DNA of 23,190 nucleotides. Source: a virus. Positions 3,791 through 23,080 of this stretch are shown here, piece after piece (position 1 is the first letter of the stretch; the number at the start of each line of letters is the position of its first letter). A program made the translations under genes and the position numbers. The notes below the pieces were generated by a model. It saw only the letters and a program-made list of their open reading frames with translations, was not told where the DNA came from and did no database searches. The stretch lies in the IMG/VR virus record IMGVR_UViG_3300008261_002294, positions 1 to 23,190 of that record; one strand, given 5' to 3'.

Positions 3791-5555
3791 GTTTCTTGAG
3801 GTACTAAAAGATAACCATTTTCAAGAAACCCCAGTAGATGCAAAGACATTCGTTGAGGGTGAAGCATACCTGGGTCAACCTGGATTGTCTGATATCCAGT
3901 ACGATATTGTAGAGGCCATGAGCCAGATTTATCGTAAAGAAGATCTCATCGATATAATGGGAGAAGAAGAAGGAACAAGGTATTTTGAAAAATATACAAA
4001 GAATGAGATTATCCTGCAACTTGGCAAGGGATCTGGAAAAGACTTCGTATCAACAGTAGCATGTGCGTATATTGTATACAAATTATTGTGTTTGAAAGAC
4101 CCAGCAAAGTATTTTGGTAAGCCAAGTGGAGATGCTATTGACCTAATCAATGTGGCTATTAACGCACAACAGGCTAAAAATGTTTTCTTTAAAGGTTTTA
4201 AATCAAAGATTGAAAGATCCCCGTGGTTTTCTGGAAAGTATTATGCAAAAGCAGACTCTATTGAGTTTGACAAGTCTATAACTGTTTACTCTGGCCACTC
4301 AGAAAGAGAATCACATGAGGGTTTAAACCTTCTTCTTGCAGTGCTTGATGAGATTTCTGGTTTTGCATCTGAAGTTGGAACAGGTAACGAACAAGGAAAA
4401 ACTGCTGAGAATATCTACAAGGCATTCCGTGGATCAGTTGACTCTCGCTTTCCAGACCTTGGCAAAGTTGTTTTGCTTTCATTCCCAAGATACCCAGGAG
4501 ACTATATCTCAGAAAAGTACGATGCAGTTATTGCTGAGAAAGAGGTAGTTGAAAGAACTCACGAGTTTATTATTAATCCATTACTTCCTGATACAGACCC
4601 AGATAATAAGTTTGAAATTTCCTGGGATGAAGATCACATCATCTCATACAAATATCCAGGGGTGTTTGCATTAAAAAGACCAACATGGGAAGTAAACCCA
4701 ACAAGACAGATTGACGATTTTAAGATTGCCTTTATGACTGACCTTGGAGATGCAATGATGCGCTTTACATGCGTACCAACCTTTGCTTCTGATGCATTCT
4801 TTAAGCAACAGGAAAAAGTAAGAGCCTGTATGACACTTAGAAACCCTGTGGATAACTTTAGAAGGTTTGACGAAGCCTTTAAACCAGATCCAACTAAGAA
4901 GTATTATGTACACGCTGACCTTGCCCAGAAGCACGATAAGTGTGCAGTTGCTATTGCACATGTAGAAAAATGGGTAAACATACAAGTCATTAACAACTAC
5001 GAACAAGTAGCACCAATTGTAGTAGTAGATGCAGTAGCATGGTGGGAACCAAAAATAGAAGGCCCAGTTAATCTTTCAGAAGTTAAACAATGGATTCAGA
5101 ACCTTAGAAGGATAGGGTTTGATATTGGAATGGTTTCTTTTGACCGTTGGCAATCATTTGATATTCAAAATGAATTAAAGCAGGTTGGAATGAAGACTGA
5201 TACTGTTTCTGTTGCTAAGAAGCACTATGAGGATATGGCTATGCTTGTATACGAGGAAAGACTTGCTATGCCTGCAATTGATTTATTATTTGAAGAACTA
5301 ACCCAGTTAAAGATCATGAAAAATGACAGAGTTGACCACCCCCGCAAAAAGTCTAAGGACTTAGCAGATGCGGTATGTGGAGCAATATTTGGGGCAATAT
5401 CACATACCCCAAAAAATATGGATACAGAGGTAGAGGTTCATACATTTAGGGATAGGCCTAAGCAGTTTGACGAACTACCCGACAATGTGATACACTATAA
5501 ACCTAGCCAAATAGAAGACATAAAAGACTATTTGGATGGATTAAAAACACTATAA
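3780..5555 (+). CDS. terL: Terminase large subunit
   Basis: The DNA-packaging motor: an ATPase that pumps DNA into the prohead and a nuclease that cuts concatemers. In the 591-residue protein from ATG 3780, Walker A is LGKGSGKD (Lys about 87) and Walker B is LLLAVLDE (Asp190-Glu191). The C-terminal RNase H-like nuclease has three acidic sites: HADLA (about Asp380), SFDRW (about Asp455) and KDLADAVCGAI (about Asp527/530). The length is normal for the family. An upstream in-frame TTG at 3771 would add three residues; the ATG is preferred. It overlaps the small-subunit gene by 11 bases. What follows is not a portal gene but an exported surface protein. Confidence 0.93.
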   Translation: MFNEFLEVLKDNHFQETPVDAKTFVEGEAYLGQPGLSDIQYDIVEAMSQIYRKEDLIDIMGEEEGTRYFEKYTKNEIILQLGKGSGKDFVSTVACAYIVYKLLCLKDPAKYFGKPSGDAIDLINVAINAQQAKNVFFKGFKSKIERSPWFSGKYYAKADSIEFDKSITVYSGHSERESHEGLNLLLAVLDEISGFASEVGTGNEQGKTAENIYKAFRGSVDSRFPDLGKVVLLSFPRYPGDYISEKYDAVIAEKEVVERTHEFIINPLLPDTDPDNKFEISWDEDHIISYKYPGVFALKRPTWEVNPTRQIDDFKIAFMTDLGDAMMRFTCVPTFASDAFFKQQEKVRACMTLRNPVDNFRRFDEAFKPDPTKKYYVHADLAQKHDKCAVAIAHVEKWVNIQVINNYEQVAPIVVVDAVAWWEPKIEGPVNLSEVKQWIQNLRRIGFDIGMVSFDRWQSFDIQNELKQVGMKTDTVSVAKKHYEDMAMLVYEERLAMPAIDLLFEELTQLKIMKNDRVDHPRKKSKDLADAVCGAIFGAISHTPKNMDTEVEVHTFRDRPKQFDELPDNVIHYKPSQIEDIKDYLDGLKTL

Positions 5556-5574
5556 AAGAAAAGGAACAAATTAA

Positions 5575-6735
5575 ATGAACTCATTTAAGAAAATCGCACT
5601 AGCCATGGTTGCAGCCATGACTTTGGGCACAATGGTAGCAACACCTGCAAGTGCTGCTGTAATGACAGTCGCTGTATCGCTTGACACTGTAGCAAATACT
5701 ACAAACTCAGCAATTGCAACGCCTGCATCATTACCAGTACCTGCAGACAACACAGTAGATGCTGCTGACGCACTAAAGTTTATTGCAACAGTTGATGTTG
5801 GAACAAGCGTAACAGTCGCAGCAACAAATGCAACAATCGTGTCTGCACTACACACAACTGCTGCACCAGTAGGAGCAACATCAGGATCTTCATCTTTGAC
5901 AATTGCCACTGGTACAGGAACAACAGCAACATTTTATGTCTACACAAAGACAACAGCAATTGGTACAGTTGTAATCACTAACGGTGGAACACAACTTACA
6001 TACTACGTACAGGGAACTGCTGGTAAGATTAACACTCTAACAGTATCTGCTCCTGCTACAGGTGCTGCTGGCACAAAGCAAGATGTTACAGTAACTGCAA
6101 CAGATACATTTGGTAACAAGGTTTCTGGTAAGTCAATTACTGCAACAGTATTTGCTGCAACAGCAACACTAGATACAGCAACAGCAACAACTGGCGCTAC
6201 ACTTTCAGACTTTGGAGTTGCAAAGTTTGTTGCAACACTTCCAGCATCTGGAACACGATCACTAATCACATTTTCACCTACAACATCATCAGATGCAACA
6301 TCTGCAGATGTAGTTGGTCTGCCAGTTCGTGTGCTATCACCGTTCGCAGAAATTACAGTTCGTGATCTAGTATCAGAACTTTCTGCACAGATTGCTGCAA
6401 AGGATGCAGCACTTGCTGCAAAGGCTGCTTCAGACGCAGCCAAGGCTGCTTCAGATCTAGCACTAGTCAGAGCAACTGCAGAGCATGTCGCTCTACTTGC
6501 TGCTGAAAAGGCTGCTTCTGTTAAGGCACTTGCAGACGCAAAGACTGCTTCAGACAAGGCACTTGCTGATGCAAAGACTGCCTCAGACAAGGTTGTTCTT
6601 GATAAGGATGCAACTATTGCTAAGTTGACAGCAGATAATGCTGCTGCACTTAAGGCAATTAAGACATCATTCAATGCACTTGCTAAGAAGTGGAATGCAA
6701 AGAATCCAAAGGCTAAGGTTACTTACCTTAAGTAA
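5575..6735 (+). CDS. Secreted Ala/Thr-rich surface protein with Ig-like region and coiled coil
   Basis: The 386-residue protein starts with a typical Sec signal peptide (NSFKKIALAMVAAMTLG, cleavage near TPASA-A, residue about 27). The next ~230 residues are rich in Ala, Thr, Val and Ser with alternating beta-like patterns. One segment (DVTVTATDTFGNKVSGKSIT) is typical of bacterial Ig-like repeats. From about residue 270 there is an Ala/Lys/Asp coiled coil with near-repeats of ALADAKTASDK, ending in a basic tail (WNAKNPKAKVTYLK). It resembles host cell-surface or S-layer-type proteins more than a virion protein. A GGAACA ribosome site precedes ATG 5575, 19 bases after terL, and a strong terminator follows. 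The role is unknown; adhesion or surface coating is inferred. Confidence 0.72.
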   Translation: MNSFKKIALAMVAAMTLGTMVATPASAAVMTVAVSLDTVANTTNSAIATPASLPVPADNTVDAADALKFIATVDVGTSVTVAATNATIVSALHTTAAPVGATSGSSSLTIATGTGTTATFYVYTKTTAIGTVVITNGGTQLTYYVQGTAGKINTLTVSAPATGAAGTKQDVTVTATDTFGNKVSGKSITATVFAATATLDTATATTGATLSDFGVAKFVATLPASGTRSLITFSPTTSSDATSADVVGLPVRVLSPFAEITVRDLVSELSAQIAAKDAALAAKAASDAAKAASDLALVRATAEHVALLAAEKAASVKALADAKTASDKALADAKTASDKVVLDKDATIAKLTADNAAALKAIKTSFNALAKKWNAKNPKAKVTYLK

Positions 6736-11748: not shown

Positions 11749-12540
11749 ATGAAATCAATCTATGACATCCAATTAAACTCTGCAGAAGGCAATCCAAATC
11801 ACCTACAGCAATATAAAGGCAAGGTTACACTAGTTGCCAATACAACAGTTGGTTGTGGCAATGCTAATCAACTTGAAGTTTTACAGATGCTACAAGATAA
11901 ATATAACAGCGAAGACTTTGAAATTATTGCTGTTCCTACAAATGACTACTGTGGTCCAGGAGTAACTAAGGGTAAATGGTCACAAGGAATAACCTGTGGT
12001 CTAGACTCAAAGGCTTACGGACAAGAAGTCTACAACACAACTTTTAAATACTCAGAAATGGTTTCTTCTGTTCCTCATGAACTACTAAACGAGGTATTAG
12101 AAAATGGACTTAGTGCTGGGACCAATGGGTTAGGTCATCCAACCCTACCTCCTCACGAACTATACCAAGAGATTTCATCTCAGATGGAAGAATTAAGATC
12201 AATGAGAGATTCTTTAGAAGATGGAAATGTTGACGGTAAGTTTAAGTCTCCTTGGTTAAATATCGGTTTCTACGATGGAACTAAAATGGGTGGCAACTAT
12301 GAAAAGTATTTGATCGATAAAGATGGCTATGTAATGAAACACTTTACATGCACAGTTCTAAACTACGACATTGAAAAAACTTTAAAAGAAGCAATGATCG
12401 AAGAAGGAAAGACTCCAATGATGGGCTCTGACAGATCACCAGAAATTTTTGAAGAAGAATTTGCTTTTGTTTGTTCTGAAATTGAAAAAGCAATCGCAGG
12501 CTCAAGATCTGCACTAAATTCAAAAGTATCTGTTATTTAA
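11749..12540 (+). CDS. Glutathione peroxidase-like thioredoxin-fold protein
   Basis: The 263-residue protein starts with the GPx layout: a short lead, then QQYKGKVTLVANTTVGCG with a cysteine (Cys36) at the peroxidatic position, then LQDKYNSEDFEIIAVPTNDY where GPx has 'FPCNQF'. Near the end NYEKYLIDKDGYVMKHF matches the closing 'F.KFLVD.DG.VV.RF' strand. Between them, about residues 70-165 form a long helical insert absent from ordinary GPx (about 160 residues), and there is an extra ~50-residue C-terminal helix region. The GPx Gln and Trp of the catalytic tetrad are not clearly present. Peroxidase activity is therefore possible but unproven. It ends tail-to-tail with the minus-strand oxygenase, overlapping by 4 bases. 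Confidence 0.68.
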   Translation: MKSIYDIQLNSAEGNPNHLQQYKGKVTLVANTTVGCGNANQLEVLQMLQDKYNSEDFEIIAVPTNDYCGPGVTKGKWSQGITCGLDSKAYGQEVYNTTFKYSEMVSSVPHELLNEVLENGLSAGTNGLGHPTLPPHELYQEISSQMEELRSMRDSLEDGNVDGKFKSPWLNIGFYDGTKMGGNYEKYLIDKDGYVMKHFTCTVLNYDIEKTLKEAMIEEGKTPMMGSDRSPEIFEEEFAFVCSEIEKAIAGSRSALNSKVSVI

Positions 12541-17952: not shown

Positions 17953-17990
17953 AACAGGCTTGTTTTTTGGCAGGCCTGTTTTTCTGTTTT
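17953..17990 (+). terminator. Rho-independent terminator closing the WhiB unit
   Basis: AACAGGCTTG (17953-17962) pairs with CAGGCCTGTT (17971-17980), ten pairs with one wobble and an eight-base loop, followed by TTTCTGTTTT. It is 11 bases after the last stop and directly before the carbamoyltransferase promoter. Confidence 0.9.
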
Positions 17991-17997
17991 GCTTTTG

Positions 17998-18003
17998 TAA
18001 AAT
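17998..18003 (+). promoter_or_regulatory. Putative -10 box, leaderless carbamoyltransferase gene
   Basis: TAAAAT at 17998-18003 lies four bases before ATG 18008 and just after the terminator tail. No ribosome site could lie on such an mRNA. Confidence 0.5.
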
Positions 18004-18007
18004 ACAA

Positions 18008-19441
18008 ATGATAATACTTGGTATCAACGAAACATCACATGATGCATCTGTATCTTTAATAAAAGATGGAGAGATCCTTTTTGCTGGTCATGCAGAAAGA
18101 TATAGCAAACAAAAAAATGACTGGTATGTGAATGATAATTTAATTAATAATGCTCTTCAATACGGCACCCCTAACGCTATAGCCTACTATGAGAAACCGC
18201 TTCTAAAGGCCTCTAGACTGGCTTTAAAGGGTGGATCTGGAGAATGGAAGCCAAGGTTTGATATACCAGGAATACCTAGAAAATCTTTTAGCCATCATTA
18301 TTCTCATGCAGCAGCAGGCTACTATACAAGTTCTTTTAATGATGCGGTAATCGTAGTTCTCGATGCTATTGGCGAATACAATACCTCCACAATCTGGGTT
18401 GGAGAAGGAGATAAGATTAAATTAAAATACAAACAGAACTATCCTATTAGTTTTGGATTATTTTATTCTGCATTCACTCAACTTATAGGTCTAATGCCAA
18501 ACCAAGAAGAATATATTATGATGGGAATGGCTGCCTATGGAGACTGGACAAAATATTATAGGAAGGTTGACGAGTACTTTCCTTCATACACTAAACAAAA
18601 ATATAACTTTCATAAGGGGATAACTGACTGGGGATGGATTGAGTCAGAGCAGGATAAGTTTGACATCGCTGCAGCAGTCCAGGTTGTTTATGAGCAAAGG
18701 CTAAATGACTTTATGCGTATGGCAAAGTCTTTAACTGGAAAAAACAACTTAGTATTTATGGGTGGTTGTGCCCTTAACTCTTCAGCAAATACCCTGCTCT
18801 GGAATATTTTTGATATGATTTGGATCATGCCAAACCCTGGTGATGCTGGAAGTTCTTTGGGAGCAGCAGCAGCCCTATACGGAAAGCATCTTGATTGGAA
18901 TACTCCTTACCTTGGTTATGATCTTGGCGGAGAGTATCCTGTTCAGCAAATTGTGGACGGTATATTAAAAGATGGAATAGTAGCAGTAGCAACAGGTAGA
19001 GCAGAGTATGGTCCAAGAGCACTAGGAAACAGAAGCATACTTGCAGATCCAAGAGATCCATTAATTAAAGACAAGGTTAATCTAATTAAACAAAGAGAGT
19101 TGTTTAGACCATTTGCTCCAGTAGTTATGGAAGAGTGTGCTTCTAAATGGTTTGATATGGACTTTACAAGCCCTTACATGCAGTACACAGTAAAGTGCTT
19201 ACAGCCTGACAAGATACCTTCTGTAGTTCATGCAGATGGAACATCAAGGGTTCAGACTGTAAACAAAGATCAGCATCGTGGGCTATGGAGAGTAATCAAT
19301 AAGTTTTACTTGCAAACTGGTGTTCCAGTACTTCTTAATACTAGTTTAAATATAAAAGGACAGCCATTGCTCAATGATGAAAATGATATAGAGTTATGGG
19401 AAGAAACTTATAAATTTCAGATCTGCAAAGGATTTAAGTAA
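18008..19441 (+). CDS. Carbamoyltransferase, NodU/CmcH/TobZ family
   Basis: The 477-residue protein has both domains of the family. The Kae1-like N-terminal domain: IILGINETSHDAS (His11), AERYSKQK, the metal motif SHHYSHAAA (His96, His97, His100), VVLDAIGE (Asp119) and MMGMAAYG. Next come GGCALNSSAN and PGDAGSSLGAA. The C-terminal YrdC-like-associated domain follows: GRAEYGPRALGNRSILADPR and LLNTSLNIKGQP. Family members carbamoylate sugar hydroxyls using carbamoyl phosphate and ATP. The ORF can be extended to 17960 upstream, but that passes through the terminator, so ATG 18008 is chosen. It is coupled (one-base overlap) to an SGNH gene, suggesting joint modification of a glycan. Confidence 0.9.
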   Translation: MIILGINETSHDASVSLIKDGEILFAGHAERYSKQKNDWYVNDNLINNALQYGTPNAIAYYEKPLLKASRLALKGGSGEWKPRFDIPGIPRKSFSHHYSHAAAGYYTSSFNDAVIVVLDAIGEYNTSTIWVGEGDKIKLKYKQNYPISFGLFYSAFTQLIGLMPNQEEYIMMGMAAYGDWTKYYRKVDEYFPSYTKQKYNFHKGITDWGWIESEQDKFDIAAAVQVVYEQRLNDFMRMAKSLTGKNNLVFMGGCALNSSANTLLWNIFDMIWIMPNPGDAGSSLGAAAALYGKHLDWNTPYLGYDLGGEYPVQQIVDGILKDGIVAVATGRAEYGPRALGNRSILADPRDPLIKDKVNLIKQRELFRPFAPVVMEECASKWFDMDFTSPYMQYTVKCLQPDKIPSVVHADGTSRVQTVNKDQHRGLWRVINKFYLQTGVPVLLNTSLNIKGQPLLNDENDIELWEETYKFQICKGFK

Positions 19442-21331: not shown

Positions 21332-21736
21332 ATGGTAAAAACAGCACTGGATCTTTTTAATGATCCTTTTTTCAATACCTTCTCAAACCTACAGAAGGTA
21401 ACAACAACAACAAACTATCCACCTTACAATCAAATCAAACTAAATGATAAAGAGTATATTCTTTCATTTGCTTTGGCTGGGTTCTCTAAGGATGATGTCT
21501 CAGTATCGCTAGACAATCGCAAACTTACAATCAAGGGCGAAAAGCAGGATGCTGAGTTACCAGAGGGTGCAGAGTATCTACACAAGGGAATTGCTGCTCG
21601 AAAGTTCACTGATATCTTTACTCTTCCTGAGTTTGTCGAAGTTGTTGGGGCTGAATTCAATGACGGTATCTTAGATATCAGACTTGAAAAGCAGATCCCA
21701 GAAGATAAACTACCAAAAACTATTGAAATTCAATAG
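21332..21736 (+). CDS. Small heat-shock protein Hsp20
   Basis: The 134-residue protein has the alpha-crystallin layout: a short N-terminal arm (LFNDPFFNTFSNLQKVTTTT) and a beta-sandwich with YILSFALAGFSKDDVSVSLD and KLTIKGEKQ. A later 'A..F.L....V.GAEF.DGIL.I.L.K' strand with EFNDGILDIRLEK follows, and the C-terminal I-x-I-like anchor is KTIEIQ. sHsps hold unfolding proteins. Phage copies, common in T4-like cyanophages, are thought to help virion assembly or stressed hosts. Ribosome site GAAAGGGG precedes ATG 21332. A structured-RNA promoter begins right at its stop codon. Confidence 0.9.
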   Translation: MVKTALDLFNDPFFNTFSNLQKVTTTTNYPPYNQIKLNDKEYILSFALAGFSKDDVSVSLDNRKLTIKGEKQDAELPEGAEYLHKGIAARKFTDIFTLPEFVEVVGAEFNDGILDIRLEKQIPEDKLPKTIEIQ

Positions 21737-21742
21737 TATAAT
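21737..21742 (+). promoter_or_regulatory. -10 box of a candidate small RNA
   Basis: TATAAT at 21737-21742 directly follows the Hsp20 stop. Start of transcription would be at about 21748-21749, where the structured segment begins. No TGn or -35 is seen. Confidence 0.5.
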
Positions 21743-21748
21743 AGTAAA

Positions 21749-21863
21749 CATTCCGCTATAAAACTTTAAAAGGTTTTGCAACGGATGCTCCTATGAGTGG
21801 AGAGTTAGCAGAAGTTGAATCTTCGTGGCTGATAGACCTGAGCAGTCGTCTATAAACTGCTCA
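21749..21863 (+). ncRNA. Candidate structured small RNA A (about 115 nt)
   Basis: Between hsp20 and pstS lie ~200 bases with no convincing ORF, the first ~115 of which fold almost fully. (1) CA-TCCG 21749-21755 with CGGATG 21782-21787, enclosing AAAAC/GTTTT (21760-21764 and 21773-21777). (2) CTCC/GGAG (21788-21791, 21799-21802). (3) TTAGC/GCTGA around GAAG/CTTC (21805-21832). (4) TGAGCAGT/ACTGCTCA (21839-21846, 21856-21863). The segment TAGAC 21833-21837 also complements GTCTA in the loop of stem 4, which would make a pseudoknot or an alternative fold. A TATAAT box sits seven bases upstream. No known RNA family was recognised, and no U-rich terminator follows. It is not a tRNA. Confidence 0.42.
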
Positions 21864-21925
21864 CTATTCATCTAAATTTAATTCCCAGTTTACCAATTAT
21901 AACAAAATTTTATAGTCATGTCCTA

Positions 21926-21931
21926 TATACT
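21926..21931 (+). promoter_or_regulatory. -10 box, leaderless pstS
   Basis: TATACT at 21926-21931 lies six bases before ATG 21938. A GTTTACC (21888-21894), one mismatch from the actinobacterial PhoP half-site GTTCACC, lies upstream; a single half-site is weak evidence for phosphate control. Confidence 0.6.
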
Positions 21932-21937
21932 ATAAGT

Positions 21938-22981
21938 ATGAAATTTAAATTCATTGCTTTACCAGTAGCATTAGCCATATTTGCTAATGCTTTTTTTATT
22001 ACCCCTTCACATGCCGATAACCTTCAAGGTGCTGGATCCACATTTGCTGCTAATTTTATAGACAGATGCAGGGTCGAATTTATGAAATCAACAGGAGATT
22101 CTGTTGTCTATGGAGCATCTGGCTCAGGTGCTGGAAAGAATATGTTTTCAAACGGAGTAACAGACTTTGCTATGTCAGATGTTCCTTACTCTGGTACAGA
22201 AGTAAAGCCATCAAAAGATTTTACATATGTTCCATTGGTAGCAGGACCAATTGGAATTATCTACAAACTTGATGGATATAGAGTTACTATTAAGATGAGC
22301 AAAGACACACTTGCCAAAGTTTTTGCGGGACAAATAACAATGTGGAATGATCCACAGATACTAAAAGAAAACCTAATAGGAACAAGACTACCAAAGATAC
22401 CAGCAACTAAGATTAGGGTTGTATATCGTGTTGATGGTTCTGGAACTTCAGAGGTTTTCACTTCATATCTTAATGCAGTTGCTCCAACAATCTGGACAAA
22501 GCCAGGAAACAAAAACTTTGCAACCGCATTCCCTGGAGATATATCTAAGCAGTACATGAACAGTGCTTCTGGATCACATGGAATTGCAATGGTTCAGGGA
22601 ACTACAAATGGATCTATTGGATACAATGAGATATCATATGCAAGAGGACTAAAGACAATCTCTATTGAGAATGAGGCTGGAAGGTTTATCCAGCCAACAG
22701 TAAGTGCAGCGTCAGTATTCCTTGGAGACTTTGTTCCAGACAAGAGTGGCGTAGTTAAAATTAATTACAAGAACCCTAACAAACTATCTTACAACATATC
22801 TACCTTTACCTACGGCATAGCATACAAAGAAAAGAACTCAAAGAATGATTCAGTTAAAAAGTTCTTTAACTTCATGCTTGACACTTGTGGGAAGAAGGCT
22901 GAAGACCTTGGCTACTCCCCAATCAGAAGTGCTATGCTTAAGTTCTCAAAAGCAAGAGTAGCAGAAATAAGTTCAAAGTAG
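21938..22981 (+). CDS. pstS: Phosphate-binding protein PstS
   Basis: The 347-residue protein has a signal peptide (residues 1-26, cleavage HA-D) and the phosphate-site pattern of PstS: LQGAGSTFAANF, ASGSGAGKNMF, DFAMSDVPYS, RVDGSGTSEVFTSYL and SGSHGIAMVQGTTNGSIGY. It binds periplasmic or surface phosphate for the PstCAB transporter. No lipobox cysteine is seen, so the protein would be exported in soluble or loosely bound form rather than as a lipoprotein. The phage carries none of PstC, PstA or PstB here, so it must use the host transporter. Phage pstS is known from cyanophages as an auxiliary metabolic gene. It is expressed leaderless from its own -10 box. Confidence 0.92.
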   Translation: MKFKFIALPVALAIFANAFFITPSHADNLQGAGSTFAANFIDRCRVEFMKSTGDSVVYGASGSGAGKNMFSNGVTDFAMSDVPYSGTEVKPSKDFTYVPLVAGPIGIIYKLDGYRVTIKMSKDTLAKVFAGQITMWNDPQILKENLIGTRLPKIPATKIRVVYRVDGSGTSEVFTSYLNAVAPTIWTKPGNKNFATAFPGDISKQYMNSASGSHGIAMVQGTTNGSIGYNEISYARGLKTISIENEAGRFIQPTVSAASVFLGDFVPDKSGVVKINYKNPNKLSYNISTFTYGIAYKEKNSKNDSVKKFFNFMLDTCGKKAEDLGYSPIRSAMLKFSKARVAEISSK

Positions 22982-22984
22982 CAG

Positions 22985-22990
22985 TATAAT
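22985..22990 (+). promoter_or_regulatory. -10 box of the second candidate small RNA
   Basis: TATAAT at 22985-22990 lies just after the pstS stop. The expected start is 22996-22997, exactly the first base of the long closing stem of RNA B. Confidence 0.55.
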
Positions 22991-22996
22991 AGAAGT

Positions 22997-23080
22997 GTCC
23001 CACACAGGACCTTAGTGATGGATTAGTTACCCATTGGATAGAGACCGTGGCGCAAGTCAGGTGAATTGCTTGTGTGGGAC
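22997..23080 (+). ncRNA. Candidate structured small RNA B (84 nt)
   Basis: GTCCCACACA (22997-23006) is exactly complementary to TGTGTGGGAC (23071-23080), and the stem extends by two further pairs to 23008/23069. Inside, TGATGG (23016-23021) pairs with CCATTG (23031-23036), and a weaker ACC/GGT (23044-23046, 23060-23062) pairing is possible, giving a three-way junction. The 5' end coincides with the start predicted from the TATAAT box seven bases upstream. It is 84 nt, closed at both ends, and lies between pstS and the next gene. tRNA was tested and rejected. There is no T-rich terminator, so the 3' end may be made by processing. Confidence 0.45.

Follow-up and report, generated by a model that had tools for sequence, protein, structure and literature searches.

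What kind of element lies between the hsp20 gene and the pstS-like gene of the virus record IMGVR_UViG_3300008261_002294 (IMG/VR), and what could its pseudoknot-like 3′ end be for? The record in its length of 23,190 nt is the window analysed here. The nearest relatives of its terminase belong to Streptomyces phages, e.g., Wofford and StarPlatinum (54% identity), and therefore the virus is most likely an actinophage. Further auxiliary genes of the phage are a glutathione-peroxidase-like gene (window 11749–12540) and a gene for a Nol-like carbamoyltransferase (17960–19441). The features of the locus are collected in Table 1.

Table 1. Features of the hsp20–pstS locus (window coordinates)
Feature	Position	Strand	Remarks
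hsp20 (small heat-shock protein)	21332–21736	+	phrog_432, E 1.1e-37; PF00011; constant neighbour upstream of RNA A
−10 box TATAAT	21737–21742	+	directly 3′ of the hsp20 stop codon; good −35 absent
Small RNA A, type A1	21750–21863	+	34 distinct A1 homologues; covariation
P1, TCCG with CGGA	21752–21755 with 21782–21785	+	encloses P2 (span 21752–21785); invariant in 31 sequences
P2	21760–21766 with 21771–21777	+	91.5% paired; 2 pairs changed on both sides
P3 hairpin, CTCC/GGAG	21788–21802	+	3 pairs changed on both sides
P4, TTAGC/GCTGA, inner GAAG/CTTC	21805–21832	+	2 pairs changed on both sides; 99–100% paired
H-type pseudoknot of RNA A	21833–21863	+	covariation of both stems across the family
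Pseudoknot S1, TAGAC with GTCTA	21833–21837 with 21848–21852	+
Pseudoknot L1	C21838	+
Pseudoknot S2, TGAGCA with TGCTCA	21839–21844 with 21858–21863	+
Possible S2 extension, GT/AC	21845–21846 with 21856–21857	+
Pseudoknot L3	begins at T21853	+
TATACT box of the pstS-like gene	21926–21931	+	ends 6 nt before the pstS ATG
pstS-like phosphate-binding protein	21938–22981	+	phrog_5385, E 2.4e-40
−10 box of unit B	22985–22990	+
Unit B	22997–23080	+

The putative small RNA A in the hsp20 locus

The preliminary description had placed a TATAAT box immediately after hsp20; the box is indeed there, and every relative with enough sequence (78/78) has TATAAT or TACAAT no more than 16 nt from the stop codon of hsp20. 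We collected 80 viral loci bearing a near-identical hsp20 and read the DNA 3′ of this gene. The −10 box is followed by a unit of type A1 (26 loci), A2 (25) or A3 (9), or by unit B directly (23). The three A types have different 5′ parts and a common 3′ end, CCTGAGCA...AAACTGCTC, and in some loci such units are also found upstream of hsp20 (e.g., L045:2814–2926). While hsp20 is constant, the DNA 3′ of RNA A varies: it may hold unit B, pstS, opposite-strand genes or other genes. Given these variable downstream neighbours, the constant neighbour of RNA A is hsp20, not pstS, and a link with phosphate limitation, suggested earlier on account of pstS, finds no support. The pstS gene itself is apparently leaderless, having its own TATACT box close to the ATG and no SD (window 21926–21940).

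The core of RNA A, ATTCCG...TGCTC, comprises 113 nt (21750–21862), to which the A closing S2 (21863) is added. The nested fold of 21743–21875 has −33.8 kcal/mol (z −2.0), and 7 of 200 shuffled sequences fold equally well; the folding energy alone is thus weak evidence, and the case for the structure of RNA A rests on its relatives. We aligned 31 distinct A1 sequences and counted pair changes for each named helix. The four helical regions proposed before were recovered: 96.7% of the helix cells pair in these 31 sequences, compared to 40–50% when the partners are slid by 1–3 columns. In P3, C-G is exchanged for U-A or G-C, and in P4 U-A for C-G and A-U for G-C. P2 also covaries, its support appearing weaker than that of P3 and P4, and the outer helix P1 never varies in A1, so that it carries no covariation information. 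The stems of the pseudoknot are likewise invariant within A1; their support comes from the wider family described below. A protein-coding explanation for this stretch fails, since the A1 units are 109–116 nt long with differences that are not multiples of three, and a search for ORFs in the RNA A stretch returned only those of 20–26 aa, i.e., of chance size.

Unit B lies within 260 nt of hsp20 in 49 of the 78 hsp20 loci. In it, GTCCCACACA...TGTGTGGGAC closes a strongly conserved RNA whose inner part is nearly unchanged in dozens of relatives, and its GGATTAGTTACCCATTGGATAGA module recurs in the L199 leader, which ends in the pseudoknot. Another recurring module, CTGCACCCCGTCACTGGGGAGTCGCAG, is located between the −10 box and the pseudoknot in the leaders after hsp20 of L096, L171, L187 and L190; these leaders precede a gene starting MFEYYVKKVTKVVDGDTI (nuclease-like, as judged by eye).

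A pseudoknot family beyond the hsp20 locus

The strands TAGAC and GTCTA, the latter in the loop of the last hairpin of RNA A (GAGCAGT 21840–21846 with ACTGCTC 21856–21862), lie where the preliminary description had put them. It had proposed a possible H-type pseudoknot from them without recognizing the knot as a family of its own, found far outside the hsp20 locus. Scanning IMG/VR for CCTGAGCA-gap-AAACTGCTC yielded at least 120 stretches. The search patterns did not include S1; among the matches listed, the nucleotides just 5′ of CCTGAGCA pair with those just 3′ of CCTGAGCAN in 137 of 168 unique instances, with 65 different S1 combinations; about 31 are expected when the upstream parts are shuffled among the instances. 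The non-pairing rest of this set is mostly of the A1 type, where S1 pairs at a different spacing.

The second stem was tested in whole-collection scans with patterns of equal length. S2 changed on both sides (GGGCA/TGCCC) occurs in at least 120 viral stretches, and S2 changed on one side (GAGCA/TGCCC) in 6. Among the matches listed for GGGCA/TGCCC, S1 is kept in 107 of 110 unique instances (about 24 by shuffling). There are further S2 versions (GGCCA/TGGCC, GGGTA/TACCC, AGACA/TGTCT and others), and a shuffled control of the collected loci produced 0 matches to the S2 versions. The GAGCA version alone was met 30 times in 14 large phage records, the reversed pattern 0 times; copies of the pseudoknot occur several times per genome.

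The family consensus reads nnnC-C-U-RRRYA-N-Gnnn-nn-AAAC-URYYY-A, with an S1 of 4 bp, an L1 of 1–2 nt, an S2 of 5–6 bp, an L2 of 1 nt and an L3 of about 6 nt ending in AAAC. The set behind it was selected for pairing, so that its 100% pairing exists by construction and only the unselected columns are informative. In this motif-selected set, the loop bases CU, A, G and AAAC are common to copies with many different stems.

With the strand order S1a-S2a-S1b-S2b and compensatory changes in both stems across the family, the H-type pseudoknot can be regarded as real, and the 3′ end of RNA A is, on this comparative evidence, a member of a large family of phage pseudoknots. The loop across the first helix had been given as two to three bases; it has 3 nt if S2 is fully extended, in agreement with that estimate, and 5 nt (UAAAC) with the consensus S2 of 5–6 bp, which departs from it. 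Either length is plausible for an H-type knot. The preliminary description had also considered that the last two helices might be alternatives of a switch. This is not favoured: in hundreds of relatives, paired changes preserve the two stems jointly, as one compact knot would lead one to expect, although RNA A itself may have an alternative state.

Placement of the pseudoknot and a possible 3′-end cap

The positions of 329 instances follow a clear pattern. An ORF stop codon lies 8–13 nt upstream of the CCT in 147 of them, compared to 1.7% for random positions. In 25 instances (1.0 expected) a same-strand tRNA follows at a distance of no more than 40 nt, which is 3–14 nt in 24 cases; several tRNA-Asp cases among these 25 are probably related by descent and hence not all independent. 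Neither an opposite-strand tRNA nearby nor a tRNA within 20 nt upstream was found for any of the 329.

Another neighbour is the type III hammerhead, of which the 3.6 Mb of collected DNA contain 10 (nine detected by a structure scan and the one in L241 by Rfam). In 6 of the 10, the predicted cleavage site is located 6–13 nt after a pseudoknot: 13 nt in L084, 6 and 6 nt in L215, 7 nt in L241, 8 nt in L269, where S1 of the adjoining knot has only 3 bp, and 6 nt in L295. The remaining four (three in L269 and one in L113) have a plain hairpin just before the cut, and so the knot and the hairpin look interchangeable at this place, as would be expected of a barrier. L269 bears four type III hammerheads within 2.7 kb (3900–6600, + strand), each directly preceded by a stable structure, either a pseudoknot or a hairpin of 8–10 bp. 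It speaks against a general coupling to known cuts that only about 8% of all copies are next to a tRNA and about 2% next to a hammerhead; in the window, the DNA downstream of RNA A is without a tRNA, a hammerhead or another known cleavage site.

An element that follows stop codons, precedes the cuts of two unrelated machines and can be replaced by a hairpin argues for a barrier that would guard the 3′ end of the upstream RNA. From this position we infer that the pseudoknot acts as a 3′-end cap against 3′→5′ exonucleases, set ahead of cleavage sites, and that it ends RNA A; we give this reading a probability of roughly 0.6. RNA A would be transcribed from its own −10 box as a small, modular phage RNA, the last ~31 nt of which fold into the compact H-type pseudoknot. 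In general, the knot would close off the portion of the transcript that is retained, a short way 5′ of the point at which RNase P (at a tRNA), a hammerhead ribozyme or host nucleases cut, and from there it would presumably block the entry of 3′→5′ exonucleases. In mRNAs it stands 8–13 nt after the stop codon, and in RNA A it would form the end of the small RNA itself, which would be trimmed back to the knot and probably persist as a stable stand-alone RNA. Most simply, the variable 5′ modules of RNA A would be small-RNA bodies or leaders that have one 3′ cap in common.

More tentatively, and at slightly less than even odds, we propose that a single, undescribed class of pseudoknot serves as a general 3′-end cap in tailed phages of many bacterial phyla, coupled to RNase P sites, hammerheads or other cuts, releasing and protecting mRNAs and small RNAs from polycistronic transcripts. 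If true, phages would have in common a portable RNA part that marks and protects 3′ ends in hosts of very different kinds. The processing of long phage transcripts to gene-length mRNAs would become easier to understand, as would the positions of hammerheads and tRNAs in phage genomes, and annotators of uncultured viruses could use a simple pattern to locate transcript ends. If such a knot of ~30 nt resists exonucleases in many hosts, it could moreover serve as a stabilizing tag.

Several other readings have to be weighed against the cap. The pseudoknot might be a 5′-leader element controlling translation of the downstream gene, by analogy with the leader pseudoknot of T4 gene 32, which is bound by the gene's own protein. 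In L096, L105 and L120, phages of the hsp20 group, it does stand between a −10 box with a structured leader and an SD and start codon 18–20 nt downstream; S. aureus and Lactobacillus-type prophages have it ~60 nt before their scaffold genes, and a terminator-like hairpin precedes it in some Firmicutes prophages. Such copies look leader-like and speak against the cap. The tight spacing, however, is to the upstream stop codon rather than to the next start, and the downstream features are mixed, including untranslated tRNAs and hammerheads, so we consider control of the next gene unlikely. Distinctly unlikely, in our opinion, is that the knot recruits a phage or host RNA-binding protein (for antitermination, processing or packaging) that reads CU, A, G and AAAC. 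These loop bases, shared in the motif-selected set by copies with many stems, fit such recruitment, as do the several copies per genome, and the conserved CU and AAAC could equally mark a protein-binding site. Yet with hosts so different, a protein common to all of them would need to be universal and encoded by the host, and plain hairpins occupy the place of the knot in one locus.

A transcription terminator or a pause signal for the phage or host RNA polymerase would agree with the location at gene ends and with the mildly T-rich DNA at +7 to +9, where T reaches its maximum of 0.48 at +8/+9. Directly 3′ of the stem, however, there is no U-tract but A (0.74) followed by C/T and C/T, the first 10 nt being G-poor; tRNAs and hammerheads begin 0–14 nt later and must be co-transcribed, and the next genes, with SD sites, come close behind. 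We therefore regard this reading as very unlikely, and the combination of a G+C-rich stem with an immediate U-tract that defines intrinsic terminators was not found. Least probable by far is a signal for programmed frameshifting or stop-codon readthrough. The spacing from the stop codon to S1 resembles that of viral recoding knots, as generally known, but no open frame continues beyond the stop, as in the recoding class: the three frames extend for a median of 10, 11 and 5 codons with no excess of long extensions, and many copies have a non-coding unit before them or a tRNA behind them.

Comparison with known systems and occurrence

The proposed cap may be compared with several known elements. 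In E. coli, REP elements and 3′ stem-loops shield the message upstream of them against 3′→5′ exonucleases. Like these, the knot is intercistronic, follows stop codons and is proposed to protect the upstream message; unlike them, it is a sequence-conserved pseudoknot rather than a hairpin, occurs in phages of many bacterial phyla and stands ahead of RNase P and hammerhead sites. The viral exoribonuclease-resistant RNAs (xrRNAs), which block 5′→3′ enzymes, share with it the compact pseudoknot and the proposed role of an exonuclease stop, whereas the fold is another one and the barrier would here face 3′→5′ enzymes. With the H-type recoding knots of the luteovirus and SRV-1 type it has in common a short L1 over an S2 of 5–6 bp and an A-rich L3 over S1; it differs in its S1 of mostly only 4 bp, with no slippery site noted and no frame past the stop codon. 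The preQ1-I, SAM-II and guanidine-III riboswitches are also small H-type pseudoknots in bacterial RNA, but they have other conserved bases, and the knot has no Rfam match and no common class of downstream genes. In ToxI-type antitoxin RNAs, tandem pseudoknot repeats lie beside a ToxN-like toxin gene; copies of the present knot are single in most loci, with hsp20, pstS, scaffold genes, tRNAs and the like as neighbours.

According to a published proposal, the hammerheads that flank phage genes divide the long transcripts of the phage into mRNAs of gene length (PMC3088659). In the available part of that article an upstream knot is not mentioned, and the pseudoknot described there is an intra-ribozyme one, distinct from the separate element that we find upstream of the cut.

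No Rfam 15 family covers the pseudoknot: scans at the gathering score and with looser limits (E of 5 or less for the window region, of 1 or less for 29 loci with other copies) returned nothing but tRNAs, hammerheads and apparent chance matches. When the entire A region was compared with named phages by BLAST, chance matches alone were obtained. A literature search for the motif, with the 2017 survey of 224 candidate RNAs lying outside its scope, found no name or prior description.

The named phages with the pseudoknot infect Staphylococcus, Arthrobacter, Mycobacterium, Corynebacterium, Paracoccus, Moorella, Nostoc and Synechococcus. Arthrobacter phage Molivia has the knot after the ssb stop codon and a tRNA 3 nt beyond the knot; the arrangement in Nostoc phage NMeng1 is in line with the placement pattern, and in the S. 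aureus phages 3MRA and B166 the knot comes after a minor head gene. In bacterial genome contigs, S1 has at least 3 bp in 89 of 119 instances, and several of these copies adjoin phage scaffold and head genes. Nine loci in bacterial contigs (L203, L220, L221, L226, L229, L240, L244, L258 and L308) bear a conserved mini-ORF of about 20 aa, MKRF.IPR.AHC..GC...S, whose TGA stop codon lies inside the CCTGAGCA of the pseudoknot; the contigs come from Aminicenantes, Deltaproteobacteria and Actinomycetes.
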